The position numbers were made by a program, and so were the translations under genes. The notes beneath the pieces were generated by a model. It saw nothing but the letters and a program-made list of their open reading frames with translations, did not search any database and was not told the origin of the DNA. From Isoetes taiwanensis (Eukaryota; Streptophyta; Lycopodiopsida; Isoetales; Isoetaceae), in the NCBI GenBank assembly GCA_021234155.1, contig JAJEKV010000033.1:15693422-15757421 (forward strand): a stretch of 64,000 bases of DNA, written 5' to 3'. Below are positions 6,738 to 64,000 of this stretch, one piece after another (position 1 is the first letter of the stretch; the number at the start of each line of letters is the position of its first letter).

Positions 6738-7338
6738 GAAAAAAAAAGGGCTAAAATCAATGGCTCAGAAATGGTGCACTCTAGATGTACGCATTAGTAC
6801 ATCCATTTGAATACATCACGAAATCATAGGAAAACCTTAGTGAAAAGCGTACAAAAACACAAAGAAAACCCCCTGTTATTATGCTACATATTCACACGGA
6901 GGGTTACTCTGGGCAACGAGAGCTGTCGGATGGGCATATTTGCCCTTTATTCCAAGATCTGGACTGTACATAGCGATCCTCGTTTGTGGGGTATGCATAT
7001 ACAAGTTTTTGTATACTGTATATTAAGATTTGCAAAATACTGTAAGGTTTGAGATAATGTACTTGATGGTCGAGCAAAATCAATCTGTCGAGCAAAATGT
7101 GTCTCTCTCACAAAAATTTAAAATGTATGTATATAACTCCAAAGAAATCAAATGAATAAGCATTACAATTCACTAACTTACCTGCACACCTAACAATAAC
7201 CATGCACATAAGATGTGACTTCAATTCTAGAAACAACTCCACTTGTAACTGATATTGTGTCGCCACCAATTGGATAGCCAACTACGATATAAAGATCCCC
7301 GCAAACGTGGTAATACTCCAAACTCAACAGGAACTCAC

Positions 7339-8148
7339 CAGCAGTTACAGCAACTGGAGCTGTAGCAACATCAAACTTGGAGGGATCCTTCAAAAATTCT
7401 TTAACCTGATCTGCCTGTGGATATGAATATTCTGTTGCAAGGGCAACTGAAAGAACATTTTTATACGAATTGACGAAGAAATGAGCAGCTGTTGCCAAAG
7501 TAGGGTATCCTACTGCCAATGACAATGCAACCACCATTGAAACACCAGAAGAGAACTTAGCCATCAGATCATCCTCAGTCAAGTCAAGGACTGCAGGATC
7601 AAAAACTGAACCATAAGAAAATGGACGAATGCCAAGCTTTGCAAGCAAAGTTGCCTCAGATGAACCAACTTTATCTCCTTTTTTAATCAGATCCACATTG
7701 GACACAATTTCCACAGTTCTCTTATTAATCTTTGTGGGAATGTTAAGAACATGGAAGAAGGACGTTTGAGAAGGATCAAGCCCTGTGTTTCCAGGAGGTA
7801 TGGTCACATCAATTGGGGCTACAAGCCCAACACGAGCAGGTGCACCCACCTTGTACTTGGCAACTTCTTCTCTGACTTCCTTTAGATCCCCTTTTGTAAA
7901 AATAAGTCCCACGTTGCCCAAGAGAAGAGATATCAGATTCAAAACAGCCGTATTTCCAGTTTTCTCTGCGTAAACTCGAATGGTTCTTTTCATCATGGTA
8001 TTCTTCCCCATAAGTACGACAGATTCTGGCCTTAAACCCTTCCTGATTTGCTGCATTTGAGTAGACCCAACATTATCCGCTACACAGATCAAAGCCTTGG
8101 AGTACTCCTCCAAAAGCTCACACATCTTTTCTAAAGTATTATATGTAC
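7339..8148 (-). pseudogene. 60S ribosomal stalk protein P0-like exon, unit A (intact frame)
   Basis: P0 (uL10) anchors the P1/P2 stalk at the GTPase centre of the large ribosomal subunit. A 311-codon frame (8,125-7,190) matches plant P0 over most of its length. Recognisable blocks are [73 protein letters not shown] and [11 protein letters not shown]. Splice-like signals bound the homology: CCCAG at 8,153-8,149 before it and GTGAGT at 7,338-7,333 after it, and homology stops exactly at the latter. The extreme N-terminus and the acidic C-terminal tail needed for P1/P2 function are not found nearby. About ten residues (VVQSVYDN region of plant P0) are missing at ~7,611 between FSYG and SVFDP. 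It is probably a gene fragment, although the frame is unbroken; a diverged expressed copy cannot be excluded. Confidence 0.8.
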
Positions 8149-8860
8149 CTGGGTTATTAGTGATGGCAAATTAAAAAGAGGCCGGAGCACCGCAAAAAAG
8201 AAAAGGGAGGTGAATGCCTACCAGAACTAAGAACAGGAATCGGATAGCTACAAAGACCGATTATTTGCAGAATACCAAAACAGGCCGCCACGGATTTCCT
8301 GACGCATCATAGCTCTGACACAAAAGAAACACCCATTTCTGCAAGTTGAACATTCATTTCTTTCTGATGCTTGCTCCAGCCTTCTTGTTCTCGATGCTTG
8401 CTCTAGCCTACCGAAACACCACAGACAGTGCTCCACCTCTGCAGAATTTGTGCCTTCCGCTAGCAAACCCTATCTAGCAAACCCTATTTCTAAATGGCTC
8501 GAGGGTTGCATGTGAAGGAGTCTGAATAAGCTAATTGAAAAAAAAATACAACATGGCCCATGGGTCTAAACCATTGAACAAAAAACACTAAAATTAATGT
8601 AGGCGTATATGCACTCTAGATATACTAATTAGTAGTTCCCATGCAATACGTTTTCGAAATCATATGAAAACCATAGGAAAAATAGTACAAAAATACAAAA
8701 CCAACCCCCTGTTATTATGCTGGATATGCACCCACTAAAAAGAACAACTAGCGGCGGCGATGCTTTCGCGGTAATATGAAAACTTAGTTGTTTCTTTAGT
8801 TGTTTGTACACATATGCATCCACTAAAAAGAACTAGCGGTGGCGATCGCCGCCGCGACAA
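8149..8860. other. Sequence upstream of the P0 fragment, unit A
   Basis: No first exon of P0 is recognised. The minus-strand frame 8,466-8,248 is conserved in all units (39,421-39,206; 57,094-56,786), but these units are near identical, so this is weak support. The stretch 8,585-8,724 resembles 6,770-6,886 (both run through gcactctaga and end ccccctgttattatgct), so the P0 block and the 5,441-6,897 segment share a related right end. Confidence 0.45.
8724..8855. repeat. ~35-bp direct repeat with a GC palindrome
   Basis: The sequence atatgcaYccactaaaaag followed by aactagcgg occurs at 8,724-8,757 and again at 8,812-8,846. The second copy runs into GCGGTGGCGATCGCCGCCGC (8,836-8,855), a palindrome with one mismatched pair. 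Copies are at ~39,680-39,815 and ~57,352-57,490. Confidence 0.75.
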
Positions 8861-10780
8861 AGTCTTGTAAGATTTATGATACTTCACACAATTTATTGCA
8901 TTTCAAAAATTTAACACAATCTCTGAAATGCCATAATTGTGTGAAATATCATAAAATCTTGTATCTGGAAAACAATGGTTCCGTGCGAGAAGAGAAAAGA
9001 ATCTGCAGTGGTCCATGATAACCTTAGAACTTCGTGCTAGGTCAATGATATCTAGACATCTGGTCAGGCTTTTTTCCCTTTGAAATCTATGGTGGAACCA
9101 TGGTACCCATTGCAAAGAAGGTCATGATGTCCGAGGGACAGATGTCATTGAACTTGAATATGCATGCAGTTGGAAGCAAGAGTGGATCATGTATCTTGTG
9201 AACCTGCTTCTCTTCCACGGGCTTTTGAATGGTCTGCCATGGTTTGGCCCCTTCGCTCGCAAAGATCCCTTCACAGCAAGATTCGGCAACACGAGAAGAG
9301 ACAAATAGTGTCAGAGTTCAGAAGCCCATGGAAGGCAGCATGTTCTCGAGCTACTAAGGTCAACGATTTCTCCTGAATTCTAGGAACGAGCCATCGACAA
9401 TCTTAAGTATCTCAAGTTGAAAGCAACTGGAATTCCCAATCTTTCTTTCTCTGCCTCTCTGGATCAATGTGGTGTAGTCACTTTCTAGGCTCCATTATTT
9501 AGAGAGGCGTGGTTGCAAGACCATCGAAGTTCCCATATGCACTCTCCATGTTCAATGCTCCAGTGTAATATCTCAATGGCATCAGGACTTACCTTGGGCA
9601 CTATAGTTGGAATCATTGTTCTCACTACAAAGCACAATGGTCGAAACGAAATGGCTACATTTCAGCGTTACCTCCCTCTCGGGTCACAAAGGAGGGTTTC
9701 CACATGCCTCTTGCATTAGCGTCTCTTAGGATCAATACAACTTAGCTCCTTGCTAAGCTCTATTGCACAAAGAGATGAATGCACGGTGAATTCTTGGAAA
9801 TCTTGTTGTAAGAGTGGATCATGTATCTTGTGAATCTGCTTCATTTTGATGGGCTCTTGAATAGTCGGCGTCGTTTGACCCCTTCGCATGCGTAAAGGTC
9901 CCTTGAGCAAGATTTTGCAGCATCTTGAAGAGACAAACGGCGTCGAGTTTAATAAGCCCGTTGAAGGTTCTGCGGGCTCTCGAGGCACTAAGGTCGGTGA
10001 TTAGCCCTAAATTTAAGAAACTCTTGAACCTTAGATGGTTCTCAAAGTATTATGTAATTTTGCGAGTGAAAATAACAAATGAAGAGAGATACAAATGAAA
10101 TGACAAAATTTATTGTTTTATTCACAAGTTGTTTATTCTTCCACGTCACATTGAGATAATGCCATCGACCTTTGGAGAGTCAAGCGGATCAAGACATGTG
10201 ATTAATTCCTCGACAAAACTTGTTGTATTGATGGGAGCAAGATCACCCACCCCTCATGTGTCCAAATTCTTCGTTTTCTTGGCTACCGTTGGATTGATCC
10301 AAGAATATGTTTTCTAGGTCATCTTTGTGGATTGACCGAAATTGGTGCATTGAATGTGCGTGCCAACGTGGATCCAAAGCAAGTACTAACAAGGTTTGGA
10401 GGTGTTGGCCTTCCGTTTGCTTCATCGGCTATTTCAATTGTCTTGGCCATTCCTTTCTAAGCCCATGCTACACCTTTTGACCCTAGCCCACCCTCACGAT
10501 TGGTGCGTTGGGCGCAACAAGAGGGATGGTGTAGTTGATTTCTTCGCTTAGTGCTCCCCAGTTTGTCCCTTGTCTTTTTTTGCTATTATTCTTAGTTTTT
10601 ATTATCACATCTAATCTTTGTTTTGGTGTGTTATGAGAGATCTTATTTTTTGTGGTCAAAATAATAATTCAAAAACATGAATGACATATGAACCATTAAG
10701 CATACGACTCCCATAACACACCAAAACAAGGATTTCAAAATTTTGCTTTATTACTTTTTGGAATCTTAGAAATTAGGTTT
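8860..10780. other. Block with a duplicated ~200-bp segment, unit A
   Basis: Positions ~9,174-9,375 and ~9,797-9,995 are diverged direct repeats (shared gagtggatcatgtatcttgtg; more distantly, gaagagacaaa). Read on the minus strand both give similar peptides containing QVHKIHDPLL or QIHKIHDPLL, so they may derive from repeated exons of one gene that I cannot name. A short fold-back lies at 10,617-10,640 and 10,705-10,728. Counterparts are ~39,830-41,740 and ~57,500-59,360. Confidence 0.45.
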
Positions 10781-10789
10781 TTAGCACGC

Positions 10790-12440
10790 CAACCCTAACC
10801 AAGCGTGCAACCCTCCTTTTTGCATTCTAGACTATCCACGTGTCACCTCCACATCATAAAAATCTGAGTTGGTATCATCTTCTACCGTTAGATCTCTATT
10901 TTATGCATCCTACGGTCATGAAAATTAAAAATTGACTAAAATGGACACGGAGATGTAAAAGGCGTTGAACTTCGTCGTATTTTTTTCTCTTTCCCAAGCT
11001 GTGGCGTCCGGATTAGCCTTGCGGATTATGTGGATTTACTCGAGAAATTTGCTCTGGCCCAATGGCGGATGGGATCATTTAGCGTTGTTTACACATGCAA
11101 CCGGGGTTTTAGCCAAGCATCGGCCTCCCCAGTTCAATGGAAATTTGTCCAAGGCAAATCGGCCTACTTTTGGCTTTAGTCCCATGCTTCTCCATTATTG
11201 TCATAACCCTAACTTTGCCTCTTTGATTCTTCCTTCCGGCTGTGTATTAATGCAAAGAGAGCTCCTTTGATGGTAGAAAAACCTTACAACCGCATTTCTT
11301 GTTCCTTCTTTGGGTTATCTTTGTTCTATCATCCGGCCAGGCTGCAAAAAGGACCACTTTGCAATTACAATCTTTGCAATTACAATCTTTTTCTTTTCAT
11401 GTAGGAGTTTAGGTTTTATAATGCCGCATTCAGCTTGCAAGGTACAGTCTTTTTAATTGCATATGATTGCTCTTAGAAATATCTTTGCCTTTGTAGTCTT
11501 CATTCCTACTCTAGGCACTAAGGTCGTCCCTTGCTTCTTCCATCAACACAAGCTTATCAATACTAGATTATTTCTTTACAAGAATCTAAATTGTTTTACT
11601 TATCTTGATCTTTGCACTTTGTGCAATTACCACAATTCCAAAATTGGAGATGCATAAGATGAAGGAAGATTTCAAACGACTCTCTTACGCAAACTATTAG
11701 GGTATTCTGCGAATCTTTGTTTTCTCTCTGTTTTCTCACCAATAATAAGGCTCAAGCTCTCGAAAAGCTACTGAACAAAATATTAACCTAACTAGCCCAA
11801 ATCAGTAGCTTGTTAATAACCTCATTTTGATTATGCTTAAGCTTTTCTTTGCTATTCTTTCCTTCCCATTTTGCTAGCATTACGTCTTTTCTCCAAGAAC
11901 TCTTTGTTTGATTGCCCATGTCTGCGCGGAAAATCCTCGTCGTAAGAGGTTGCAATGGACTGCATACAAGGCATGGGCCCGATTGGATCTCGTAAAACAC
12001 CACTACATACACGTCCATTGGGCTCATCGGTGGAGTTTTTCATTGTACAAAAGGCGTAGGCAAGCCTGCATCATAAAGTCCCGATGATTATTTGTTGGGA
12101 AGTATAAGAATCTTTTTTACCTCAGATGGAAGACAAGATAGAGCCTCAAATACTCATTTTATGGGCATGCCTGAGACCTTTAAGCCTCGAATGGGATACT
12201 TTAAATTTTTGTTTGAGTCCCTTTCCTTTCAATCCTATTAATTATTAATGCTCCATACGTCTCATACTTGCATCATCCATAAAAACGTAAACTTGCTCAA
12301 AACTTAAACTTGCCCTTCCAAACAAGAATGTTGCCTCCCATCTTCATTGAGCATGGTGCATTTGTCTTCTTTGTCGAATTTATTCATGTAACACTATTTG
12401 TGCGCATCTTCACACTGTTCAAGTGTTTAGAAGCATAAGC
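10790..12440. other. Left part of the 3.6 kb block present in A and B, absent from C
   Basis: Present at ~41,735-43,390 in unit B and missing from unit C, where 59,360 jumps to the equivalent of ~14,410. A minus-strand frame at 12,043-11,852 and a plus-strand frame around 10,965-11,270 have some coding character, but I match neither to a family. A hairpin with GCACGC/GCGTGC stems (~10,778-10,803) sits at the left border. Confidence 0.4.
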
Positions 12441-12507
12441 GGGTGCTATTTACGGGCCGGTGTGGATCGCTAAAAAGCGAGGAATTGACACTTCTTTACG
12501 GGCTGCA

Positions 12508-12845
12508 ATGGAGAGCGATCTTTGCTACTTATGCATCCCTTCTTAGGCGATGTATCAAAAGAAAAGGCTTTTCATTATTGGGTAAGTGCGCGTTCATCTT
12601 TAACATTAGTAGAAATGGATTTCAGCAAGAGAGATAATGTGTAATTTACTTCTTGAGATATATTGTAAATGTGGATGCGTAATGCAAGCATAGAAGGTTT
12701 TGTCTCCATAAAAATGTGTACTCTTGGACTATCACGATTGTGTCTTATCTCATGCAAAAAGCATTGATTTATTCAAAGAAATTGCAGATGGGAGGTTTGA
12801 AACCCAATATAATATCCTGATGCCATGATTGCTGCTTATGCACAT
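12508..12845 (+). pseudogene. Pentatricopeptide-repeat (PPR) gene fragment, unit A
   Basis: PPR proteins are plant organellar RNA-binding proteins built of ~35-residue repeats. Translation in three frames recovers PPR signatures: a TYASLLR start, then VSRNGFQQERIMCNLLLEIY (clearest in unit B at ~43,530-43,600), a KNVYSWT segment, and GGLKPNIIS with AMIAAYAHYGQ near 12,790-12,845. Frame changes fall between these blocks. It lies directly upstream of the transporter fragment on the same strand. Only one to three repeats remain, far short of a working protein. Confidence 0.7.
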
Positions 12846-12886
12846 TATGGGCAAAACCATATTTGCTAGATAGTTTAGGCTGCTTT

Positions 12887-13660
12887 GCTTTGGAAAGAAT
12901 GCAAAAGTTCTCCAACAATCAAAATGATTTGTAAATTTGGCTGGAAAAGCATACTGGTATGCTGGTTCCATCCATCATTTATCTCATTCACAACAATGTA
13001 CGGTTTGCAACTCTCACATATGTGGACACATCAACATACCAAATTATGGAAAATCTCAAAATTATCACAACTGGCGTCTTATTTGGTAAAGACAATTTTA
13101 TAGTGAGATACCAATACCGAAATATAGTACCTAGTTTGATCGACATTTGGGCATCGTCTTGCGGGGGCCTTTTTAAAAAGGAGGCTTTCAAATTTGCGGT
13201 GGATAGCTATAATTTTGTTGGCACTTGGAACAACTACAAGCTAGGTTTGAATGGGCAAAGAGGAATCTGGTGTATGGACAAGGCCTATCTGATTACCTCT
13301 CGACCTTGTCTTTGCTGCGATAAAGGGTTGTGGCGAGTGGTTGTGTGGCAAACTTTTCTTTGCACCAATCTGAGGGGTATATGTTTGGTATATTGTCGAC
13401 TGCCTTCGGCATCGGCGAGGAGTTTACGGAGTTCCTAATGAAGAAGGATTATGATTTCTGTATTGGCAAAACTTGCAACTCTATACATGCTTCCGACGGC
13501 CCATTATATGCTAGGTTTATGCCACATCAATGGCTATGCTATTAACAATGGTGCTATCGGTTCTCCTTTTCCACTTCCGACCTACCTTGCGGGTTCTCCA
13601 CAATCTTTTGTGCATGTCACTTCAAATGTACTTTACACCGGCACACTTCTTGATTGCTTA
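12887..13660 (+). pseudogene. CMP-sialic acid transporter-like (nucleotide-sugar transporter) fragment, unit A
   Basis: These are Golgi multi-pass membrane antiporters of nucleotide sugars. Blocks in family order are LWKECKSSP (12,887), VPSIIYLIHNNV then FATLTYVDTSTYQIM (from 12,961), LKIITTGVLF, IAIILLALGTTTS (~13,205-13,245), YMFGILSTAF, then TEFLMKK, and MAMLLTMVLSVLLF with SLQMYFTPAHFLI (13,530-13,657). Intron-like gaps remain between blocks (GTAAAG after LLFG at ~13,086, acceptor near 13,165), so this is copied genomic DNA rather than a retrocopy. About 60 family residues are missing between the WQN-LQLYT region and VYATSMAM. N-terminal helices are also missing. Non-functional as written. 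Confidence 0.85.
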
Positions 13661-16600
13661 TCACGCCTTACAACTACCACAACGTCAAGGCAATCGGGGA
13701 CATCATATTGCGGAACATAAATATGTATTTATTCTTATTATTCCTTTATTGTTTACACAAAGTCATCGTGGCAATTACTGGGTGCAATATTTCACATGCA
13801 ATATTTCTTGGCAAGCTTAGGAAATGGGATGCTACTTTGATGTGTCATAGACAAATGTTCTTATCTTTGTGAATGGTGAGCTGAATTTCCATTACATCCG
13901 CAATAAATCCAATGAATTGATGTTTTAGTTTAGGGGGGCTAGGCTATTCTTGAGTGTAGTCTAGGCCTAATTTTTTTTCATATATTGATTTATCTTCGAT
14001 GCATATTAACTTATATCCGATCGCGAGGCGGTCTCGGCCATCAAGTATCTGTCACCCCTTGAAATATACAATCGGATCTCTGCTTTTGCCAACATGCACT
14101 CAATATTTATGTCAATGGAAATGATAATAACATTCATTGCTTAATATGTTTATAAGAAATATTCATTGCTCATTATTACAAAAATATACCTGGGCGGACA
14201 TTAAATCAACAATCTCATATCCCGCGCTTCCAAAACTAAGAAATACTGGTACCTTAAATGGAGGGGTATTATCTAAAGTATCCAAGCAACATATGCTATT
14301 TCATATACAATAAATTTCAATACAATTTTGCCCTAATACACCTTGCTCTAATCTTCTTGCGCCTTTATTTTCTATGGCCTGTGGCGTGCCTTTTTGCTAG
14401 TTTCTTTGTCTGTTTCAGTTTGTGGTTTGAAAGACAAAGTACAAGGCGGCCAATTTCTTTATTTTATTCACTCATTCTCTTCTTTAAGTATATTCCTTTT
14501 TTAATAAATTTGTGAAATTCGTCTCTGTTATTTCTTTAACACGCTTCTTTTCTTTCCTTTTGTTTTACTTACTAGAGAAGCAAGATTTGAAAACGCATTT
14601 AGCAACTTGATGAGCAATATATGAAGCATTTCATTTACCAAAGTATGAAATACTTGATAGTGCTTTATTGAAATCCATACAAAAGAATTTGAAATTTTAT
14701 TTGGGCCGTTCAACGAACATAGTTTCTGTTTAAATCCCCGAGCGGGCACGTACATTTAGATCCATTTGAAAAATGCAGTCCATCTGAAAAATGCTACTTC
14801 TCTGCGGAGCTTTCCATGGCGACACTCAGGCTTTTTAATGCTCTGCTGGACGGCACAAAAGCCATGGCCTCTTGTTCATACCACAAAACCACGATGGGGT
14901 CGAAACCCCTTCTAAGAAATTAGAAAGCGGGCTTTGTATGATTGGTCGTCCTTGAGAATTATTGTTGGAATTGTTGTCATGCCATATTGATAATTAATAA
15001 TTGAGCGAGAGGGAGTCGTCGCGGGCGGTGAAGCATCTGCACGGGGTAAAGCTTTGAGAGATCGGCTTGTGGTGGCTGCTGTGCCGGTTGCGGATCGGTT
15101 GGAAGCCGCGGGGATTTTGAGCATAGCCATAGCTTCATAATCGATGTAGATGTATGTAAGCAGGTCTATAGTTGAAAAGCTCAATTCTTGCCGGCATATA
15201 AGAAATGCATATCATCTTGGTAGCTTCAAACATGCTTGTCAACTTACCATTCTAGGATGGATTGTAGTCAAGAAAATTGTTGTGAAATCACGGTTTAGAA
15301 CATCTCTTCCATAGACTACTTGAAGATTTGGAAACGAGCCGCGATAAGAAATAGCTACAAAGAAAATAAACTATTTACCTCAAACATACCTTTTGTGATG
15401 GAACATGAGCAAGCAAGAACCCGAACTTCTAATTGCTCTTTCCTTATAAATTGCTCTTTTGTTGATAGTTCATCAAGTACCGTTTTGGTTTCTATCAAAA
15501 GGATGAATATGAAACGAAGAATGAGGAAAGCGGCATCTACTACGATTAAAATAATAGGGGTCAACCTCACATGTAGAACATGATCGTGTCATTCATGCAA
15601 ACAAATCAAAATAAGCACATCGCAATGAGACCATTTTGAATAGACATTGCAACCTGCATTTCTTGCGGATGCATTCCGGGATGGATTCAAACGTCTCAAA
15701 CTTCGGATACATAAGGCACCCGGACGATGCATAGGATGTCAAGAATCAATAAAAATGGCGCATTTGGAAAGAATGGATTAAGTGGAATCAACGGATAAGA
15801 ACTCATCAAAATAACGATTTGCAAAGATGTGATGCATTACAATAAAAAGTGAAAGCCATATAAGCGAAAATAATCAAAGAATCAAATGCAAGTGCATTGA
15901 TACATTGTAATCGCGTAACTCTTGGCCAAGACATATTTTCAAGTAGACCAAGCGAAGAACTAAAATAGATAAATTGCGGATGGACAACTACTGAAACTAT
16001 TAGCCTATAAATACTAATGAGAAGAATTGAGACAAATCGATAGAATTGCTTTCGGTCATTAATGCTCGTTAATCTTTGTTACCTTCCAATACAACCAAGA
16101 TCGGATCCATTAAAATCATCATGAACCAGCATAATTAGTGCTTTCTGCGAATAAGTTAGCATGTCATTATACAATTTAATGCCCCAAAAGCAACATGTAA
16201 CCAAATAGATAGACAAACATGGCAACATCCTTGAAATATTTTCACATTCAACAAAAGCATTATTGAAAGAATCATGTGTATTGAAAGAGCTTGGTTCTAG
16301 CAAGAATTATTCCATAGTAGAAAACGGTGCAACATAAAGTACCTAAGTAAGATATAATCTGCCCTTATTATTCTTAGTTTGAGGTGCATATTTCTCATCA
16401 AATATATCACCAACTCGACATAGAAGTCGGGACGAAGAAAAACAGGGGATTATCTCAAGAAAATAATTGAATCTCACCATCATGCATCAAGCGTAGAAGT
16501 CGGGGGCGAAAAAATGCATATCATGCAATAAAGTTTGTTGCTTATGTATAAATTCCCCGACTTGCCTCTGGTAGCTGCAAACCGGAAGATGCATCTCCTA

Positions 16601-18400
16601 CCAATGTCTTGAAACAAAATAATAATCGATTCTGATAGACACACAAAATAGATGTGAGCAGGGGAAAAGCGAGGAAAAAATAGTGGGAAGAGGGGAAAGC
16701 GGAATTAACACCAAAAAAAAACTATGGCTTTGCTTTTCGATGAAAATGTAGCAACAAAATGAAGCCCGCGTTCTGCTGCTATTTCTCCATTTTTTACTCC
16801 TTGGAGGTTCTGCGCCGCTCTTCTTGTTTTGAACCATGGTTACGCCATGGTTCTGCCATGGTTTTGAACCATGGTTACGCCATAACCAGCTATGAGGCGT
16901 TGAAATAGAAAAGGAAGGGGCGATAATTGAGAAGCTACGGAGAGGAGAGAGGCCGCATCAAGGAGCTGATGTTGCATAAGATCACAGCGGTATTTGAGAA
17001 CAATAGTGACCTCGAAATACGCGCAGAAGATAGTGTTCTTCATCGGACCCTTCAAGAAGCATCGAGAAGGTGCAAGCTAGATTCGTTGGCGGTCACGGAG
17101 TTGAGCATGCGAGCTTTTAACAGATACAAACAAATGGACAAATGGCTATGGAGTCGATTATGCGAGATCGGACATAACATTGAGGGCCATAAAATATGGC
17201 AAAAAGAGATGTTGAACTGCTTTGTTGGTATGTGAGGATGGCCATGACCTTTCTTTGCTTGAAGGAAAAGCATTGCCCATCCTGCCATGAGACAATGGAT
17301 AAGGTAGATTTGAAATATAATCCGGCATGTTCATGATGCGGAGGATAAAATGAAAAGAAACGGAACATGATTGGAAGACACTAGGAGCCGCCGCGAAATT
17401 TTCCTAGTCGATTTCAAATTTCTTTGAAGCGGATAATCTTTGTCTATTGAGGTACATTAGTCTTGCTCTCTCTCAGCTTGTTATTTTAATCGCCAAATCC
17501 AGTCCTCATGTCTTTTATCTTCTCCCACGGTGTGATACCCAGCTGAGGCTTTGAAGGCTGCATGGACAAGCTCTAAGGCTTCATCCATTTGAGGCTTTGA
17601 AGGTCATGATACCCGTGAGGCTTTGGGCCCGGTGTTTAAGAGTGAAAAGTGCTCTGCTATTGACGAACTATTACGTGTAGTAATATATGTACATTTCTTT
17701 GTGACAAATAAAATTACGTAAGCCAAGTTTAGTGTACAAGGTATCCTCGGGGCTGGCGACTTCATTTTACAATGAGGAAGTGTCGAACAAGTATTTAACT
17801 TCAAGTCATCTTGCCATGCTTTGACCTTACACAGCTTGATAATAACACGGAGGCTGGAAATGACCTCTTAGGCTCACAGTTTGTTAGAAAATGCTCACTT
17901 TTTGCACCAAGCAAGCCATGGTTTTCGCATCAAATTAAGCATGGGATTGCAGTCTAATTAAAGGGCCGTGGTGATATATAGCTATTTTAAAACCCCTCTC
18001 AACTTCCTAAGTATGAATCTGAAGATTTAACATACATATGTCAAACCCTCAAACATATCAACACGGAGAAGCCAAAAAAGCGAACCCTAAATATTCCTAT
18101 GCTAAATGAAAAATTATCCATACCGCTTCAGCGATTGAAGAAAGCGAGAATTCCAAACTTTTTATCGGTTTGAAGTGAAGCGCCATGTTTTCTTGACTCG
18201 GGGGCACGAAAGAGATGCCATCGGATTGAACCCTCGTAGCTCTGCTGGATATGTACGCATCCTCGTTAATTGCTTTCGTTGCGAGAATCACTCAAAGGTT
18301 TAGCTCCCAAAGGGAGCAGGTTCCTTTCCTTCAATGGCTTGGAAGCTATAATAGGGCCAAAGAAACATCTTTAGATGGAATGGCCCAAAGAGAAAAAAAA
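13661..18400. other. ~4.7 kb of unit A with no recognised gene
   Basis: Matching blocks are ~44,620-49,340 and, from the equivalent of ~14,410, ~59,370-63,360. Open frames such as 16,303-16,079 (minus) and 16,927-17,235 (plus, containing EGHKIWQKEMLN) look partly codon-like but match no family I know, and differ in frame between copies. It holds the CCATGG repeat cluster (16,831-16,885) and a short repeat of gaggctttgaagg around 17,545-17,630. Confidence 0.5.
16831..16885. repeat. Short repeats around the palindrome AACCATGGTT
   Basis: The palindrome AACCATGGTT and the spaced form CCATGGTTNNNGCC repeat four to five times. Counterparts are 47,760-47,820 and 61,785-61,848, where the spacers read ctcg instead of ctg or acg. 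Confidence 0.7.
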
Positions 18401-18406
18401 TCTTCC

Positions 18407-18414
18407 TATAAAAG
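18407..18414 (+). promoter_or_regulatory. TATA box of the PEBP-like gene, copy A
   Basis: TATAAAAG lies 55 bp before the ATG at 18,462. The same box is at 49,346-49,353 and 63,370-63,377, at about the same distance. In copy A roughly 17 bp just before the box are missing compared with the other two. Confidence 0.6.
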
Positions 18415-18461
18415 TTGGAAGAGAATGTTGTTTGTAGCGAAAGTAGCCTAGCAAAGCAATA

Positions 18462-19306
18462 ATGAAGATGCTTGTAGCCTTATGTTTGATGATGATGACA
18501 ACGGCGATAATTTCTCAAACAATGACACATCCGGTTTCCTTGACATTAAGGTTTCCATATATGCACAATGAGGTGGTGAGAGATATGGGTTTGTTCCTCT
18601 TGCGAAAATTGCTCATCCTCAATCATTACAATCGATTGGGGTAAGGATAATAGCTCAACACCACCAACAACACAAACGCCCATAGTTAACTCAACATCTC
18701 CAACTCTAGCTCCAGCTCGAGCACCGGCATCGGCACCGGCAGGAGAATCATTTGGAGCTTCAGCACTAGAATCATTTGTAACTTGGGAAGTACCTTCTAA
18801 TAACTTCTACTCATTGATTGCCATTGATAGATTTGCCATCTCCATCGCCAATCCTCAACCTCACCCTCCTCACCACCCCATACCTCATCCTCATTCACAA
18901 CCCAAATCGTTTCCTCATCCTTATACTTACCCCAAACATCCCAAATCTCATCCCCGTCCCCCTGCTCATCCTAAACCTCATCCTCGTCCTCATCCTCACC
19001 CCAAACATTCCAAATCTCATCCGCATCCTCCTCCTCCTCCTCACCCCAAATCTCATCCCCATCCTCGTCCTCATCCCCATCCTCATCCTCTTGTGCCGCC
19101 TAGGCATCAACCTCATCATTTGGAGCACAAAGATATCTATGTGCATTATTGGATTGTAGACATTCCTGAAGGAGCGAATGATGTTTCTTAAGGGAAGGTT
19201 TATTATTCTTATCAAAAACCGGTCCCTATGATGGTGATAATGGCTATCATACAATTGAATTTCACTTGGTGAAGCAAGCGCAACCCGGATTCTTTCACAT
19301 GCCTAA
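18462..19306 (+). CDS. Secreted PEBP-like protein with a Pro/His-rich insertion, copy A (frame broken)
   Basis: PEBP (phosphatidylethanolamine-binding, FT/TFL1/RKIP fold) proteins bind anionic ligands. Here a hydrophobic N-terminus (MKMLVALCLMMMTTAIISQT) looks like a signal peptide. PEBP-type sequence follows: SLTLRFPY, then EIAHPPIITIDWG (open in copies B and C), FYSLIAIDRFAISIANP, DIYVHYWIVDIPEGANDVS and, in copy B, GPYDGDNGYHTIEFHLVKQ. The usual DPDAP motif is degenerate (IDRFAIS), but the histidines of VHYW and GYH remain. Between IANP and IYVHYW sits a ~92-residue block with 25 His, mostly HP and HPRP/HPKS repeats. Length would be ~280 residues. In this copy the frame breaks near 18,580-18,625 and at a TAA at 19,189, where copy B reads tctgga. 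The start was chosen because the signal peptide joins the PEBP frame without a break only here. The breaks may be assembly errors. Confidence 0.7.
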
Positions 19307-19765
19307 ATATCAACCCACGACATCTGCCGAAACTATCACCTCATCTCACTACCCCTTAGACTGGAGTAATGATGTTGCGAATACTAGTTTTATTTGTTCT
19401 TCTAGGAGGATTTTCCGCTGAAGGCATTGTGTAAATGTCTTTAGGTTTTTGTATAGGAATTTATATATATAATATATATTGAATACTTTTTTGTGTCTTC
19501 TAAACATATATAAGTCTGTTTGAATTTTTGTTTGATGGAATATTTCCGTTCCAAGAAAAAACCTTGGAGCACCACGTGTACTTCAAAAATTCAAAAATAC
19601 AGTTAAAAAAAAATTAAATGGATTGACTGCGTGACGTCACGTTATGATCCATTGTAATCGGCTCTGGATCTGAGCAAAAAAGGGTAAAATCTGCGATTTC
19701 TTCCTCTGCAAGCAAATTTCTTGGATGCTAATCTGCTCTTCCTATGATGCCCGCTGTGGGCGATT

Positions 19766-26659: not shown

Positions 26660-27005
26660 ATCAACGTCGATAATCGATATTTGTCCGTCGATTGTCGACC
26701 TAAACGGGTCGACAATCGACGGTCAACGTCGATCGTCTACGTTGACCAGTCAAACGTCGACCGGTGACCATTGAACGTCGATCATCGACGTTCAGTTGGA
26801 GTGACGTGTCGCCTTTGGCCTCGTGGCATGCCTACCTGGTCGCCCGACGACCGCGTGGCTGTACTCGCGTGGCGTAGAACGTCGATCATCGACGTTGTGT
26901 CGATGATGACATGGCATGCGTGGCCTGGCCGATGCCTACGTGGTCCCTCAGTGCCAGGGTGGCTGTGCGCGTGGCGTGGAACGTCGATCATCGACGTTGT
27001 GTCGA
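26660..27005. repeat. Left subterminal repeats of the CACTA element
   Basis: Several copies or variants of the palindrome AACGTCGATCATCGACGTT, within two larger ~115-bp imperfect repeats (each ending cgtggcgt(a/g)gaacgtcg). Comparable arrays bind transposase cofactors in En/Spm. Confidence 0.8.
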
Positions 27006-27049
27006 GATGAAGTTGAATGTGTGGTCTGGCCGAGGTTTGAAGTTGAATG

Positions 27050-30000
27050 TGTGTTTCTTTCTTTTGCGAAACCGACCTTGTAACTTGCTCCCTAGGGTAA
27101 TTTCGCCATTCCGGACGATTTGGCAGGGTCAATTTGCCATTCCGGAGCCTCCCCGTGCGGAACGACAAGACACCTGCGGGTTTCTACAAGGCCAACTCCG
27201 GGGCGCCCATGGTTTGACAAGTTCTCCCGGACCGATCTGGAATCTTTTGGGCCTTCCCCAAGAGGGGCCCCCCGAACGGAGGATCCAACGGTCCGGATAG
27301 GGGAACCGGCTCAGAAGGGTGGTCATTAGCGTGCGGCCCCGGGGCCCCAGAAGGGCTGCCTCGGGAACTTTTTTGGATCCCGCCTCTTGGGGTCCGGACT
27401 CTCCCCTCTTGTGAGGGATCCCTGCAAGGTCCTGGCCTCGTTTGACTTGGGGAAGGGTGCCAGCTCGGTTGCCCTGCAACGGGCTGCCCCGACCGTTCTA
27501 ATGCTAACCCTTTGACCTAGACCTTCTCCCTCGGTTTGAAAATTGGGTAGTGTTGGAGATGGATTAGGAATCCAGCTGGCAAAAAATCAGAATTTATTTT
27601 CGTACAATGCATTAATTGCGAATTTATGAATGTCTTGCCACTGCAAAAGCGCCCCGCGACTTCTACTTGCCACATCGGGAGGAGGACAGGCCCAAACTCC
27701 GCTCCGGCCGGTTCCCCTTGCTCATTATTCTCCTCGCTGCGGCTTCTGAAGCCCGTCCCAAGTGCAACAGACCAAGTCTCGGCCCCCAAAAAGCAAACCC
27801 TTCTAGAACCTGGCAACCCACAGGGTTTACGTTTTGGAGGCCCTCTCCTTGTCAGATTCGGGCGGGACCTTGCGCCGTGACTTGACGTGGAGTGGGGGTG
27901 TTGACGCCAGAGCACGGACCCTAAAATCCCCCCGGAAGCTGCTTGCCCCGAATTTCCTCTCCCCAAGGCCCTGGGGACGGACGGGCGACCTCCCCTCTCC
28001 GGAATCGCGATTTGGCTCTGCCAATGGACTCAGAACGTCGACATTGCCCTAGGGACCAAGTTAAAGGGGCGAAGACCACCCGACCTCCAAGAAGCGCCAA
28101 AGTAGCTCACTTCCATCACACTCGTAGTCAATTGGCCTAGGATGTGGATGCGGGATACTGTCGTGGAGGGCATGAGTGTTTCTTTCTTTTGCAAAACTGA
28201 CCTTGTAACTTGCTCCCTAGGGTAATTTCGCCATTCCGGACGATTTGGCAGGGTCGATTTGCCATTCCGGAGCCTCCCGGTGCAGAACCACAAGACAACT
28301 GCCCGGTTTCTACAAGGCCGACCTCGGGGCGCCCAGCGGGTTTGACAAGTTCTCCCGACCGATCTGAATCTTTTTGGGCCTTCCCGAAGAGGGGCCCTGA
28401 GCGGAGGATCCAACGGTCCGGATAGGGGAACCGGGCTCGGGAGGGTGGTCATTAGCGTCACGGCCCGGGGGAGCGGCGCCAGAAGGGCTGCCTGGGAACT
28501 TTTTGGATCCCGCCTCTTGGGGGTCCTGGACTCTCCCCTCTTGTGAGGGATCCCCGCAAGGTCCTCGGCCTCGTTTGACTTGGGGAAGGGTGCCACTCGG
28601 TTGCCACAACGGGCTGCCCCGGACCGGATTCTAATGCTAACCCTTTGACCTAGACCTTCTCCTAAAAAATTTGAAAATTGGGCTGTGTGTTTGGAGATGG
28701 ATTAGGAATCCACCGGCAAAAATCAGAATTTATTTTAAGCATAATGCATTAATTGCGAATTTATGAATGTCTTGCCACCGCAAAAAGCGCCCGACTTCTA
28801 CTTGCCACATCGGGAGGAGGACAGGCCCAAACTCCGGCCCGTCCGGTTCCCTTGCTCCGTGATTCTCGGATCGCGACTCGCCAGTCCCAAGTGCAATGGA
28901 CAAGTCTCGGCCCCAAAACGCAAACCCTTCTAGAACCCGGCAACCCACGGGGTTTACGTTTTGGAGACCCTCTCCTTGTCAGATTCGGACGGGACCTTGC
29001 GCCGTGACTTGACGTGGAGTGGGTGTGTTGACGCCAGAGCACGGACCCTAAAATCTGCTTGCCCCGAATTTCCTCTCCCCAAGGCCCTGGGGACGGACGG
29101 GCGACCTCCCCTCTCCCGGATCGCGATTTGGCTCGCCAATGGACTCGAACGTCGACATTGCCCCGGGGACCAAGTTCCGTGGCCAGAAGACCACCCGACC
29201 TCCAAGAAGCGCCAAAGTAGCTCACTTCCATCACACTCGTAGTCAATTGGCCTAGAATGTGGATGCGGGATACTGTCGTGGAGGGCATGAGTGTTTCTTT
29301 CTTTTGCAAAACCGACATTGTAACTTGCTCCCTAGGGTAATTTCGCCATTCCGGACGATTTGGCAGGGTCGATTTGCCATTCCGGAGCCTCCCCCGAACC
29401 ACAAGACACTGCGGTTTTCTACAAGGCCGACCACCTCGGGGGCCCGCGGTTTGACAAGTTCTCCCGGACCGATCTGGAATCTTTTGGGCCTTCCCAAGAG
29501 GGGCCCCCGAATCGGAGGATCCAACGGTTGGATAGGGGAACCGGGCTCGGGAGGGTGGTCATTAGCGTCAGCCCCCCGGGAGCGCCGCCAGAAGGGCTGC
29601 CTCGGGAACTTTTTGGATCCCGCCTCTTGGGGTCCTGGGACTCTCCCCTCTTGTGAGGATCCCCCGCAAGGTCCCCGCCTCGTTTGACTTGGGGAAGGGT
29701 GCCACTCGGTTGTTCCCAACGGGCTGGCTGCCCCACCGTTCTAATGCTAACCCTTTGACCTAGACCTTCTCCTCCGAAAATTTCAAAATTGGGTAGTGTG
29801 CGGAGATGGATTAGGAATCCAGGCCGCAAAAATCAGAATTTATTTTCGCATACAATGCATTGATTGCGAATTTATGAATGTCTTGCCATCGCAAAAGCCC
29901 CCCCGACTTCTACTTGCCACATCGGGAGGAGGACAGGCCCAAACTCCGCTCCGTCGGTTCCCCTTGCTCCGTATTCTCTGGCTGCGGCTTCTCGGCCAGT

Positions 30001-32371
30001 CCTGGCACAACGTACCAAGTCTCGGCCCCAAAACGCAAACCCTTCTAGAACACGGCAACCCACCCGGGGTTTCGTTTTGGAGGCCCTCTCCTTGTCGATT
30101 CGGAAGGGACCTTCTTGCTCGCGGACTTGACGCGGGAGTGGGGGTGTTGAGGCCGTGAGCACGGACCCTAAAATCCCCCTAAGCTGCTTGCCCCGATTCC
30201 CTCTCCCCAAGGCCACGATCCGACGGGCGACCTCCCCTCTCCGGAATCGCGATTTGGCTCTGCCAATGGACTCATAACGTCGACATTGCCCTAGGGACCA
30301 AGTTCCGTGGCCAGAAGACCACCCGACCTCCAAGAAGCGCCAAAGTAGCTCACTTCCATCACACTCGTAGTCAATTGGCCTAGGATGTGGATGCGGGATC
30401 TTGTCGTGGAGGGCATGAGTGTTTTTTTCTTTGCAAAACCGACCTTGTAACTTGCTCCCTAGGTAATTTCGCCATTCCTGGACGATTTGGCGGTGGTCGA
30501 TTTTGCCATTCCGGAGCCTCCCGGTGCCGAACCACAAGACATCATGGTTTTCTACAAGGTCGACCTCCCGGGGCGCCCCGCTTTGACAAGTTCTCCCGGA
30601 CCGATCTGGAATCTTTTGGGCCTTCCCAAGAGGGGCCCCCGAATCCAGGATCCAACGGTCGGATAGGGGAACCGGGCTCCGGGAGGGTGGTCATTAGCGT
30701 GCAGCCCCGGGGGAGCCGGCGCCAGAAGGGCTGCCTCGAACTTTTGGATCCCGCCTCTTGGGGTCCTGGACTCTCCCCTCTTGTGAGGGATCCCCGCAAG
30801 GTCCCGGCCTCGTTTGACTTGGGGAAGGGTGCCAGCTCTGTTTTTCCGCAATCGGGCTGCCCCGACCGTTCTAATGCTAACCCTTTGACCTAGACCTTCT
30901 CCGAAAATTTCAAAAATTGGGCTGTGTGCTGGAGATGGATTAGGAATCCAGCTGGCAAAAAATCAGAATTTATTTTCGTACAATGCATTAATTGCGAATT
31001 TATGAATGTCTTGCCACTGCAAAAGCGCCCCCCGACTTCTACTTGCCACATCGGGAGGAGGACAGGCCCAAACTCCTCGCCCGTCCGGGCCCCTTGCTCC
31101 GTATTCTCTACAGCAGCTTCGGCCAGGTCCCAAGTACAACAGACCAAGTCTCGGCCCCCAAAACGCAAACCCTTCTAGAACCTGGCAACCCACAGGGTTT
31201 ACGTTTTGGAGGCCCTCTCCTTGTCAGATTCGGGCGGGACCTTGCGCCGTGACTTGACGTGGAGTGGGGGTGTTGACGCCAGAGCACGGACCCTAAAATC
31301 CCCCCGGAAGCTGCTTGCCCCGAATTTCCTCTCCCCAAGGCCCTGGGGACGGACGGGCGACCTCCCCTCTCCAGAATCGCGATTTGGCTCTGCCAATGGA
31401 CTCAGAACGTCGACATTGCCCTGGGGACCAAGTTCCGTGGCCAGAAGACCACCCGACCTCCAAGAAGCGCCAAAGTAGCTCACTTCCATCACACTCGTAG
31501 TCAATTGGCCTAGGATGTGGATGCGGGATACTGTCGTGGAGGGCATGAGTGTTTCTTTCTTTTGCAAAACCGACCTTGTAACTTGCTCCCTAGGGTAATT
31601 TCGCCATTCCGGACGATTTGGCAGGTCGATTTGCCATTCCGGAGCCTCCCCGGTGCCCGAACGACAAGACACTGCGGTTTCTACAAGGCCGACCTCAGGA
31701 CGCCCCGCGGTTTGACAAGTTCTCCCGGACCGATCTGGAATCTTTTGGGCCTTCCCGAAGAGGGGCCCCTGAACGGAGGATCCAACGGTCGGATAGGGGA
31801 ACCGGGCTCCGGGAGGGTGGTCATTAGCGTGCAGCCCCTCCCGGGAGCGCCAGAAGGGTCAGCTGCCTCGGGAACTTTTTGGATCCCGCCTCTTGGGGTC
31901 CTGGACTCTCCCCTCTTGTGAGGGATCCCCCAAGGTCCCTCGCCCTCGCTTTGACTTGGGGAAGGGTGCCACCGGGTTGTTGTTCGCACGGGCTGCCCCG
32001 ACCGCTCTAATGCTAACCCTTTGACCTAGACCTTCTCCTAAAAATTTCAAAATTGGGCATGTGGCCGAGATGGATTAGGAATCCAGCTGGCAAAAAATCA
32101 GAATTTATTTTCGTACAATGCATTAATTGCGAATTTATGAATGTCTTGCCACTGCAAAAGCGCCCCCCGACTTCTACTTGCCACATCGGGAGGAGGACAG
32201 GCCCAAACTCCGCTCCGTCAGTTCCCCTTGCTCCGTATTCTCGGCTGCAGCTTCTCCGTCCCAAGTTACCTTGAGACCAAGTCTCGGCCCCCAAAACGCA
32301 AACCCTTCTAGAACCTGGCAACCCACAGGGTTTACGTTTTGGAGGCCCTCTCCTTGTCAGATTCGGGCGGG
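27050..32371. repeat. GC-rich tandem array, ~1.12 kb unit, about 4.7 copies
   Basis: The anchor cgaccttgtaacttgctccc recurs at ~27,072, 28,198, 29,312, 30,440 and 31,570, giving periods of about 1,114-1,130 bp. Each unit also shares ccattccggacgatttggc, a run gaatttattttcgtacaatg and ggcctaggatgtggatg. The array ends abruptly after cagattcgggcggga. It is clearly more GC-rich than its surroundings. Long minus-strand frames (up to ~220 codons) recur per unit but with frameshifts between units and no family match. Confidence 0.88.
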
Positions 32372-32504
32372 ATAGAACTAGATGTGAAGCGGCCAAGCTC
32401 TTGTTGCCTCAACCAAGAATATTTGAAGCGGCTAGGGTTTTGGATGTCAGGGTTTTTGCTTCAATTCGAACCTTTGTAGGTACAATTAACTTTTTTTTTT
32501 TGGC

Positions 32505-32606
32505 CAACGTCGATATTGACCGTTTTGTCGGTATATCCGTCGATCATCGACGTTTATACAGAACGTCGATTATCGACGTCGCGACGTCGATTATCGACGT
32601 TGCTCT
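32505..32606. repeat. Internal cluster of the CACTA palindrome
   Basis: At least three copies of the CGTCGATNATCGACG type stand together ~2.3 kb inside the right end, just after the tandem array. Subterminal repeats normally sit only at the ends. The cluster may mark the promoter side of a lost transposon gene or the end of a nested or earlier element. Confidence 0.7.
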
Positions 32607-37407: not shown

Positions 37408-38284
37408 TGTTATGGCTTTGCCGGTCGTTGTTGCTATGCCATGAACAGGGATACTTGCATGTGGTCACAGATTGTTTATGCAACGAGCTTGCTCGCTAGG
37501 TATGTGTGGATCAAGCAAAGGCACGTGGTGGTTGTTTCAAATAAAAGAATGTCTAGATATAAGCGTAATAAGTGGAGCTTTCTAAATCAGGGTTTGATCT
37601 AAGACGATGCTTATGATTCCATGGAAGTCGAGATAGTATAAACCTTCTATTTGGTACACTCAAATTCTCAAAATTAAGGAATGGAACAAAAGAAGTGTCT
37701 AAGATGCTTGTAAAAGTTCTGATATATAGCAATCGACACATAACTATCATTAACATTAATTAATATAGACCATTGCATCCAACACATTTAAATCAAAATC
37801 CCCCTGAAACCCCCTTTGGTTTGGGTGCATATTCACACGGAGTGTTACTCTGGGCAACGAGGAAGTCTTGGATGGGCATATTTGCCCTTTATTCCAAGAT
37901 CCGACTGTACATAGCGATCCTCGTTTGTGGGGTATGCATATACAAGTTTTGTATATCTTGTATATTAAGATTTGCAAAATACTATAAGGTTTGAGATAAT
38001 GTACTTAATGGTCGAAAGCAAAATCAATCACGAGCAAAATGTGTCTCTCTCGGCCAAAATTTAAAAATGTATGTATATAACTCCAAAGAAATCAAATGAA
38101 TAAGCATTACAATTCACTAACTTACCCCGCACACCTAACAATAACCATGCACATAAGATGTGACTTCAATTCTAGAAACAACTCCACTTGTAATCGATAT
38201 ATTGTGTCGCCACCAATTGGATAGCCAACTACAGTGATAAAGATCCCCGCAAACGTGGTAATACTCCAAACTCAACAGAACTCA
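37408..38284. other. Unit B stretch up to the P0 fragment
   Basis: Counterpart of ~5,090-5,440 plus 6,898-7,338. No gene. The left fold-back arm is at ~37,730-37,842. Confidence 0.55.
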
Positions 38285-39109
38285 CCAAAGATTCACAGCA
38301 ATCGAGTCAGTAGCAACATCAAACTTGGAGGGATCCTTAAAAATTCTTTAACTTGATCTCGCTTTGTGGATATGAATATTCTCATTGCAAGGGCAACCTG
38401 AAAGAACATTTTTATACTGAATTGATGAAGAAATGAGCAAAAACGCCAAAGTAGGGTATCCCATCGCCAATGACAATGCAACCACCATTGAAACACCGAA
38501 AGAGAACTTAGCCATCGATCATCCTCAGTCAAGTCAAGGGCTACAGGATCAAAAACCGAACCATAAGAAAATGGATCTAATGCCAAGCTTTTGCAAGCAA
38601 AGTTGCCTCGAGATGAACCAACTTTATCTCCTTTTTTAATCAGATTCACATTGGACACAATTTCCACAGTTCTCTTATTAATCTTTGTGGGAATGTTAAG
38701 AACATGGAAGAGGACGTTTGAGAAGGATCAAGCCCTGTGTTTCCAGGAGGTATGGTCACATCAATTGGGGCTACAAGCCCAACACGAGCAGGTGCACCCA
38801 CTTGTACTTGGCAACTTCTTCTCTGACTTCCTTTAGATCCCCTTTTGTAAAAATAAGTCCCACGTTGCCCAAGAGAAGAGATATCGATTCAAAACAAACC
38901 GTATTTCCAGTTTTCTCTGCGTAAACTCGAATGGTTCTTTTTTCATCATGGTATTCTTCCCCATAAGTACGCATGCATTCTCGCCTTAAACCCTTCCCGA
39001 TTTGTTTTTTCTTTGCATTTGAGTAGACCCAACATTATCCGCTACACGATCAAAGCCTTGGAGTACTCCTCCAAAAGCTCACACATCTTTTCTAAAGTAT
39101 TATATGTGC
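38285..39109 (-). pseudogene. Ribosomal P0-like exon, unit B (frameshifted)
   Basis: Same fragment as at 7,339-8,148, but broken into frames of 124 residues (38,667-38,293) and 67 residues (38,974-38,771). The breaks coincide with CAG/CTG positions of copy A: near 38,290, copy A cagcagttacagcaactgg becomes caaagattcacagcaatcg. The breaks may therefore be sequence error. Confidence 0.75.
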
Positions 39110-43815: not shown

Positions 43816-43835
43816 TTTGCTAGATAGTTTAGTCA

Positions 43836-49340: not shown

Positions 49341-49345
49341 ACCGC

Positions 49346-49353: not shown

Positions 49354-49399
49354 TTGGAAGAGAATGTTGTTTGTAGCTAAGTAGCCTAGCAAAGCAATA

Positions 49400-50256
49400 A
49401 TGAAGATGCTTGTAGCCTTATGTTTGATGATGATGACAACGACGATAATTTCTCAAACAAAGAAAGACATCCAGCTTTCCTTTGACATTAAGGTTTCCAT
49501 ATATGCACAATGAGGTGGTGAGAGATATGGAGTTTGTTCCTCTTGCCGAAATTGCTCATCCTCCAATCATTACAATCGATTGGGGTAAGGATAATAGCTC
49601 AACACCACCAACAACACAAACGCCCATAGTTAACTCAACATCTCCAACTCTAGCTCCAGCCCAAAGACCGCAAGATCGGCACCGGCAGAGAGAATCATTT
49701 GGAGCTTCAAAGACTAGAATCATTTGTAACTTGGGAAGTACCTTCTAATAACTTCTACTCATTGATTGCCATTGATAGAAATGCCATCTCCATCGCCAAT
49801 CCTCAACCTCACCCTCCTCACCACCCCATACCTCATCCTCATTCACAACCCAAATCGCTTTCCTCATCCTTATACTTACCCCAAACATCCCAAATCTCAT
49901 CCCCGTCCCCCGCTCATCCTAAACCTCATCCTCGCCCTCATCCTCACCCCAAACATTCCAAATCTCATCCGCATCCTCCTCCTCCTCCTCACCCCAAATC
50001 TCATCCCCATCCTCGTCCTCATCCCCATCCTCATCCTCTTGTGCCGCCTAGGCATCAACCTCATCATTTGGAGCACAAAGATATCTATGTGCATTATTGG
50101 ATTGTAGACATTCCTGAAGGAGCGAATGATGTTTCTTCTGGAAAGGTTTATTATTCTTATCAAAAACCCGGTCCCTATGATGGTGATAATGGCTATCATA
50201 CAATTGAATTTCACTTGGTGAAGCAACCGCAACCTGTGATTCTTTCACATGCCTAA
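49400..50256 (+). CDS. Secreted PEBP-like protein with a Pro/His-rich insertion, copy B (frame broken at N-terminal side)
   Basis: The C-terminal half is the best of the three copies: a 185-codon frame (49,699-50,256) runs from TWEVPSNNFYSLIAIDRNAI through the His/Pro block to DVSSGKVYYSYQKPGPYDG, YHTIEFHLVKQ and the stop after ILSHA. The N-terminal PEBP strand (FVPLAEIAHPPIITIDWG, 49,530-49,583) is open in another frame. The signal peptide from 49,400 runs into a stop at ~49,511 because of extra bases near 49,460-49,490. The breaks again fall at CAG/CTG-rich sites (agcttcagcac in copy A is agcttcaaagac here), so the true gene may be intact. Confidence 0.7.
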
Positions 50257-50803
50257 ATATCAACCACGACATCTCGCCGAAACTATCACCTCATCTCACT
50301 ACCCCTTAGACTGGAGTAATGATGTTGCGAATACTAGTTTTATTTGTTCTTCTAGGAGGATTTTCCGCTGAAGGCATTGTGTAAATGTCTTTAGGTTTTT
50401 GTATAGGAATTTATATATATAATATATATTGAATACGTTTTTGTGTCTTAATAATAAGTTGCATAGGTTATGATGATAATTTGTTTTTTAGTTGATATTT
50501 TTCTTCTATTATTGTCTAAATATATACAATAAAGTCTCGTTTTTTTGTCGTTCTTATTTTTCGTCCTCTCGCGATTCTAAATTGAGACACCAAGGCTTTT
50601 CTAATTTCCTTTGAGGTGAGTATTAAAAGAAGGCGAGAATTTTGTTTCGTAAGCATGAGTTGACGTGTTGCATTGATATGTAGAAGAAGAGTAATTGAAA
50701 AAAAAAATAGACGGTGCCCGCTGTTGCGGCATAAATATTTGCCTCTATTGCGTGAATTGAACTTAATTCCTTGCACTTATAAATGATGTTGCCTCTTGTT
50801 GCA
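50257..50803. other. 3' flank of PEBP copy B and inter-unit spacer
   Basis: The 3' flank is shared with 19,307-19,498. The uninterrupted Helitron site is at 50,448/50,449. The spacer matches 23,510-23,832. No gene. Confidence 0.6.
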
Positions 50804-63423: not shown

Positions 63424-64000
63424 ATGAAGATGCTTGTAGCCTTATGTTTGATGATGATGACAACGACGATAATTTCTCAAACAAAGAAGACATCCAGTTT
63501 CCTTGACATTAAGGTTTCCATATATGCACAATGAGGTGGTGAGAGATATGGAGTTTGTTCCTCTTGCCGAAATTGCTCATCCTCCAATCATTACAATCGA
63601 TTGGGGTAAGGATAATAGCTCAACACCACCAACAACACAAACGCCCATAGTTAACTCAACATCTCCAACTCTAGCTCCAGCCCAAAGACTCCAAGATCGG
63701 CCGAGAGAATCATTTGGAGCTTCAAAGACTAGAATCATTTGTAACTTGGGAAGTACCTTCTAATAACTTCTACTCATTGATTGCCATTGATAGAAATGCC
63801 ATCTCCATCGCCAATCCTCAACCTCACCCTCCTCACCACCCCATACCTCATCCTCATTCACAACCCAAATCGTTTCCTCATCCTTATACTTACCCCAAAC
63901 ATCCCAAATCTCATCCCCGTCCCCCTGCTCATCCTAAACCTCATCCTCGTCCTCATCCTCACCCCAAACATTCCAAATCTCATCCGCATCCTCCTCCTCC
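63424..64000 (+). CDS. Secreted PEBP-like protein, copy C (partial, cut by the window end)
   Basis: Signal peptide from 63,424. The PEBP strand from 63,503 is open (MTLRFPYMHNEVVRDMEFV, then EIAHPPIITIDWG). The His/Pro block begins at ~63,825 and is still running at the window end. Frames change near 63,490 and between 63,680 and 63,730, at the same places as in copy B. Confidence 0.65.

Follow-up and report, generated by a model that had tools for sequence, protein, structure and literature searches.

Isoetes taiwanensis PEBP-like genes with a hydrophobic leader and two loop inserts, one rich in His and Pro: a possible family of cell-wall proteins

The window analyzed here, a 64-kb stretch of the Isoetes taiwanensis genome (C1038:15693422-15757421), is made up of long segments repeated in tandem (6866–19499, for instance, matches 37807–50449 at 92%) and carries three tandem copies, A, B, and C, of a PEBP-family gene (Table 1). 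The PEBP landmarks named in the original prediction are present. In copy A, the IITIDWG strand begins at 18622, the FYSLIAIDR.AISIAN stretch occupies 18775–18852, and KDIYVHYWIVDIPEG starts at 19129, directly after a His/Pro block. This block does contain the 25 His that were claimed for it, together with 36 Pro, 7 Lys, 4 Arg, and 1 Glu, although its length is 91 residues rather than 92. The copy does not end at 19306, as first thought; its C terminus runs to 19421, and no intron was seen across 18462–19421. The original claim is not borne out as worded, as the parts do not lie in a single reading frame. The leader of copy A occupies a first frame, the segment from IITIDWG through VHYW a second, where an in-frame TAA follows GANDVS, and the segment from GYH to the end is in the first again. 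These frame breaks, found in all window copies, were overlooked in the earlier reading, as was a second insert, which we call site 1. The position of the block, ahead of the HW strand, and the N-terminal hydrophobic leader were both correctly recognized, and both recur in uninterrupted copies elsewhere in the genome. Copy C, cut by the window edge, is complete at locus L020, where it shows 13 indels of 1–2 bases relative to the uninterrupted copy L010.

Table 1. Coordinates of the PEBP-family copies and their parts in the window
Feature	Position	Strand	Remarks
Copy A, His/Pro PEBP gene	18462..19421	+	5 one-base indels relative to L010 and an in-frame TAA; same DNA as L009
Copy A leader, hydrophobic, signal-peptide-like	18462..18521	+	Starts MKMLVALC; hydropathy computed on the equivalent leader of L010
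Copy A site-1 insert, N-glycan sequons and Ser/Thr/Ala-Pro stretch	18652..18774	+	Between strands IITIDWG and FYSLIAID
Copy A site-2 insert, His/Pro block, 91 residues	18856..19128	+	25 His
Copy A post-block PEBP core, KDIYVHYWIVDIPEGANDVS(stop)GKVYYSYQKP	19129..19221	+	Contains the in-frame stop
Copy A PEBP C-terminal part with GYH motif	19227..19421	+	Back in the frame of the leader
Copy B, same gene, same parts	49400..50371	+	12 indels of 1–2 bases relative to L010; locus L018
Copy C, same gene, ends at window edge within block	63424..64000	+	9 indels of 1–2 bases relative to L010 in the part present
TATA-box-like TATAAAAG upstream of copy A	18407..18414	+	Identical word before copy B (49346) and also before copy C

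Several other features lie in the window. An open frame on the minus strand (7190–8125) resembles 60S acidic ribosomal protein P0 (RL10P_insert and Ribosomal_L10); its Ribosomal_60s match covers 58 of 88 positions, and part of it is repeated at 56475–56774. A partial sequence for a nucleotide-sugar transporter (PF04142, 30 bits) occupies 12959–13438 on the plus strand. Self-comparison also revealed a head-to-tail array at 27047–32372, with a period of about 1.1 kb and 89–90% identity; Tandem Repeats Finder, with a longest period of 500 and thus below that of the array, listed nothing in 26800–32600.

The gene recurs well beyond the window. In a search of the genome (G000; 1,658,258,908 bases in 1110 contigs), 94 matches at E ≤ 10 came from a C-terminal query and 70 at E ≤ 1 from an N-terminal one; these merge into 76 family loci, weak and fragmentary ones included. 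Both ends are matched at 57 of these, with 26 on contig C1038, 16 on C1050, 3 on C720, and 12 dispersed over other contigs. The C1038 cluster occupies 14.7–15.8 Mb. An uninterrupted frame spans the whole gene at seven of the 76 loci (314–344 residues). Two of the seven lie in clusters, the other five belong to the 12 dispersed loci, and all can be read without any intron. This recurrence, at 76 merged loci with seven fully open, is more than chance. Six of the seven carry the His/Pro block (L010, L039, L040, L041, L043, and L044; 314–329 residues). The seventh, L045 on C1053, has 344 residues (307 from a later Met) and is without the block; frame-broken copies related to it lie on C71 (L046) and C940 (L054). 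The TATA-like box 5′ of the ATG is kept in five of the six His/Pro members (in L041 as TATATAAG) and lost in L044.

The inserts occupy two sites in the six His/Pro members. Site 1 falls between the strands IITIDWG and FYSLIAID, with 44–54 residues from TIDW to NFYSL. It contains two N-glycan sequons and 7–8 Ala/Ser/Thr-Pro pairs in five of the six, and four pairs in L039, where the site includes an off-frame, self-compensated stretch. Arabinogalactan glycomodules are built in this way. At site 2, ahead of the HW strand, stands the His/Pro block, whose 88–111 residues include 23–28 His in HP/PH repeats, 10–16 Lys/Arg, and one or two acidic residues. A simple pKa sum for three members puts its charge at +33 to +41 at pH 4.8 and +11 to +15 at pH 7.5. 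All six members have three N-glycan sequons, and after the leader there is one Cys in five of them and two in L044. The leaders of three proteins reach a best 12-residue Kyte-Doolittle mean of 2.0–3.2. In L045, site 1 instead holds poly-Pro (longest run 25) and a Cys-rich NCSCTCY patch. An origin of the block in another His-rich gene was considered and rejected: among the best genome candidates scored, each of the 84 block matches with E ≤ 1e-4 has a family match no farther than 1.5 kb away, two of these neighbors being weak (near C1038:14901125, E 0.35, and near C1050:6014095, E 0.45).

The inserts obscure the relationship of these proteins to PEBPs in domain searches. With inserts kept, none of three full-length proteins matches Pfam at E ≤ 1. 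With inserts removed, the L045 core scores 29.8 bits against Pfam PBP (PF01161), above the cut-off of 24, and a core of the His/Pro type scores 20.0 bits (E 8.9e-4), below it. A profile built from three cores without inserts recovers 18 PDB sequences at E ≤ 1; the top two are Hd3a (7.7e-7) and FT (2.3e-6), and TFL1, CEN, PEBP1, and ribosomal protein mL38 are among the others. Leaving Tm16 aside, these are PEBP-fold proteins. The Hd3a match spans core positions 52–161 of 170, and strands preceding this range were therefore equated only by eye. Thus, the PEBP membership originally proposed is supported by profile searches once the inserts are removed. A single-sequence PDB search was weak, with a best E of 0.049; sea-anemone pore-forming proteins made up six of its 20 entries at E ≤ 10, and we regard those as chance matches. 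The 14 matches to PF01161 in a genome search all lie outside the family loci, so ordinary annotation may overlook the family. A structure prediction for a single fragment of window copy B was poor (pLDDT 43).

The DPDxPS and GxHR motifs form the ligand pocket of PEBPs, and both are altered here. DPDxP has become DRNAI(S), or DRDAS in L045, and GxHR has become NHK, YHT, or IHT. Three residues persist, namely the first Asp of DPDxP and one His each in the HW strand and GxH; the Arg that should follow GxH is replaced by Lys or Thr. Among seven of the genome's own PEBP loci tried, no closer kin was found, as the best of them, L004, scored 18.6 bits versus 32.5 for Hd3a, in a comparison where the L004 exons were joined by eye and L006 was joined without its middle exons. 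L004 and L005, both on C908, belong to a second type of PEBP: they have a hydrophobic leader and a DPDAVSP motif, lack inserts, and contain at least one intron (by eye); exon 1 of L004 scores 39.7 bits against Pfam PBP.

The window copies carry frame-breaking indels, and the protein is therefore not continuously encoded there. Relative to L010, there is also one three-base insertion in copy A and two in copy B, and some adjacent indels compensate each other. These breaks look mostly like residual nanopore errors that escaped correction, with true decay also possible, because indels rival substitutions in number, cluster near CpG, and recur at the same positions. In four comparisons of tandem units within the window, the counts of 1–2-base indels to substitutions were 375/527, 140/194, 102/111, and 68/63; 62–72% of the indels lay within 6 bases of a CpG, versus 24–34% of background positions, and indel positions in the coding part are shared by many copies. 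Across the coding part, short indels per substitution amount to 0.50–1.67 in 12 cluster pairs, as against 0.02–0.23 in four dispersed pairs, a ratio biased downward because the dispersed loci were selected for open frames; for L010 versus L039, the value is 0.22. Near-identical repeats are, in our judgment, hard to correct in nanopore assemblies polished with racon and pilon. The published assembly, as its assembly procedure is described, was made from nanopore reads in this way (PMC8566536). The same indel pattern (6866–19499 versus 37807–50449; 14401–19037 versus 59358–64000) may break other gene calls in repeats of the assembly, and calls in its tandem repeats may err in either direction.

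A different account, that the clustered copies, those of the window among them, are pseudogenes within a segmental tandem repeat and that few copies elsewhere, or none, are functional, is one we hold to be possible, if doubtful. All three window copies are broken, a full frame survives at two of 45 two-ended cluster loci versus five of 12 dispersed ones, and L052 and L054 are older, decayed copies bearing stops and frame changes. Moreover, 62–74% of the substitutions in the four window comparisons are also near CpG, as decay of methylated CpG would yield. CpG-proximal short indels are likewise seen in the dispersed pair L043/L044 (64% of 25), whose flank has 19.8 short indels per kb; in the flank of L041 versus L043, there are 28.2 per kb. 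The high indel/substitution ratio in cluster pairs and the CpG clustering of the indels nevertheless speak against plain pseudogenes in the window, a possible reading that we do not accept, and the nanopore origin of the assembly and the divergence of the 12 cluster pairs, 4–24 substitutions per kb in the coding part against 24–57 in the flanks, also count against this account.

The pattern of divergence differs among the parts of the gene. In 19 cluster loci, window copies included, compared with L010, substitutions per kb are 5.1 in the block and 3.7, 3.8, and 13.1 in the PEBP parts, versus 36.7 in the far 5′ flank and 20.7 in the far 3′ flank; the leader (25.5) and site 1 (27.3) are no more conserved than the latter. 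Lower methylation or gene conversion could also cause the low coding divergence in clusters. The block shows no sign of codon-level selection in these 19 comparisons (distinct changes: 6 silent, 11 non-silent), and the coding part is at least as diverged as the short alignable flank (56–213 bases) in three of the four dispersed pairs. Among the six His/Pro members, pooled pN/pS over 15 pairs is 0.39 in the core, 0.37 in the block, 0.64 in site 1, and 0.63 in the leader; three separate pairs give 0.38 for the core and 0.42 for the block. Depending on the mutation model, 2, 20, 27, and 69 of 1000 neutral simulations reached the core value and 0, 18, 14, and 19 the block value. In 72 hand-picked ungapped codons of L043 versus L045, dS is 0.64 and dN 0.20. 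Taken together, pN/pS, the neutral simulations, and dS/dN moderately support translation of the core and block.

We favor, at a probability of about 0.4, the reading that the window sequences are members of a multi-copy family whose uninterrupted copies encode, each in one open frame, a PEBP-like secreted protein in which two loops have grown into modules of the wall-protein type, the His/Pro arm being a pH-switched polycation that holds acidic pectins. The reading builds on the open frames, PEBP kinship, insert positions, and copy number described above. The leader, sequons, and Pro modules suggest that the protein is secreted. Its Pro-rich and sequon-bearing modules would be hydroxylated and glycosylated. 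At a wall pH near 5, the His residues would be charged, allowing the arm to bind acidic pectins, and it might also help boron to form bridges, an activity that AGP31's His-rich peptide shows in vitro. The PEBP core may act as a scaffold or offer an altered small-ligand pocket.

The main rival to this function keeps the same secreted chimeric PEBP and makes the arm chiefly a binder or buffer of apoplastic metals (Zn, Cu, Ni, or Fe). The richness of the block in His, its HP/PH repeats, and its near lack of acidic residues, all constant across the six members, would suit such a role; the 10–16 Lys/Arg in the same block suggest a polycation instead, and we consider a primarily metal-binding arm unlikely. 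A polycation that binds wall polymers is favored as at least as good an explanation, because the block is cationic and the similar His/Pro stretch of AGP31 promotes boron bridging of RG-II. That the block is an intron or untranslated segment is very improbable: it lies near the site of FT's second intron, but a single open frame runs from leader through block to C terminus in all six full-length His/Pro members (themselves found by their open frames), and few or no neutral simulations reach the block pN/pS of the three separate pairs. Extending the wall-polymer reading further, one could imagine that a lycophyte lineage remodeled florigen's PEBP fold as a wall glycoprotein by growing O-glycan and His/Pro modules in its loops, multiplied the gene to more than 50 copies, and employs the product as a pH-switched chaperone when pectin (RG-II borate) is cross-linked; we offer this as a long shot.

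Plant PEBPs are known mainly as cytosolic signaling proteins. With FT, TFL1, and MFT, the family shares the PEBP core, Hd3a and FT being its best profile matches, and the first Asp of DPDxP and the His residues of the HW strand and GxH. It differs from them in its leader, its two long inserts, DRNAI in place of DPDxP, the missing Arg after GxH, and its single open frame. The surfaces through which FT binds 14-3-3 are also changed: the site-1 insert ends right before NFYSL, which by FT numbering of NFY we place at the first surface (59–65), the Arg preceding NFY is missing, and in place of FT's PATTGTTF stands PEGANDVS. The two surfaces comprise FT residues 59–65 and 93–100, and angiosperm MFTs, as presented in the same source, have lost them too (PMC8408984), so the altered surfaces are compatible with MFT kinship. 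Lycophyte PEBPs reported to date form, in that account, one MFT-like clade (PMC8408984). Because of the leader, the differing residues at the 14-3-3 surfaces, and the altered DPDxP, a florigen role seems unlikely for the His/Pro PEBP, which is more probably a wall protein than a flowering signal. Among titles and abstract openings in the literature searched, which covered few subscription journals, none described a plant PEBP that combines a leader with inserts of this kind. A secreted, module-bearing, multi-copy branch, if real, would widen the roles of the fold.

Vertebrate histidine-rich glycoprotein, a secreted binder or buffer of metals, is alike in having His/Pro repeats in a secreted protein and differs in domains and repeat type. 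The features of chimeric hydroxyproline-rich glycoproteins, namely a leader, a folded domain, and Pro-rich stretches of glycomodule type, can all be recognized in the predicted proteins. The I. taiwanensis genome has been used elsewhere in a comparison of AGPs, as far as that source describes it (PMC12209756). A close parallel is with AGP31 and the histidine-domain AGPs, which likewise combine a leader, a His/Pro stretch, a Pro-rich region of O-glycan type, and a cationic character. AGP31 is described as having a 24-residue His/Pro stretch near its N terminus, and both the His/Pro peptide (moderately) and the glycoprotein as promoting RG-II boron bridging in vitro (PMC9555800). PAC proteins, in the account consulted, combine a folded domain with His-rich or Pro-rich parts (PMC7177597). 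The six-Cys PAC domain is absent from the six His/Pro members, given their one or two Cys after the leader and PBP as the only Pfam match. In contrast to AGP31-type proteins, the folded domain here is PEBP rather than PAC, the modules sit inside the loops of that domain, and the His/Pro block is about four times longer. If our reading is right, PEBP would be a second folded partner for His-rich wall glycoproteins.
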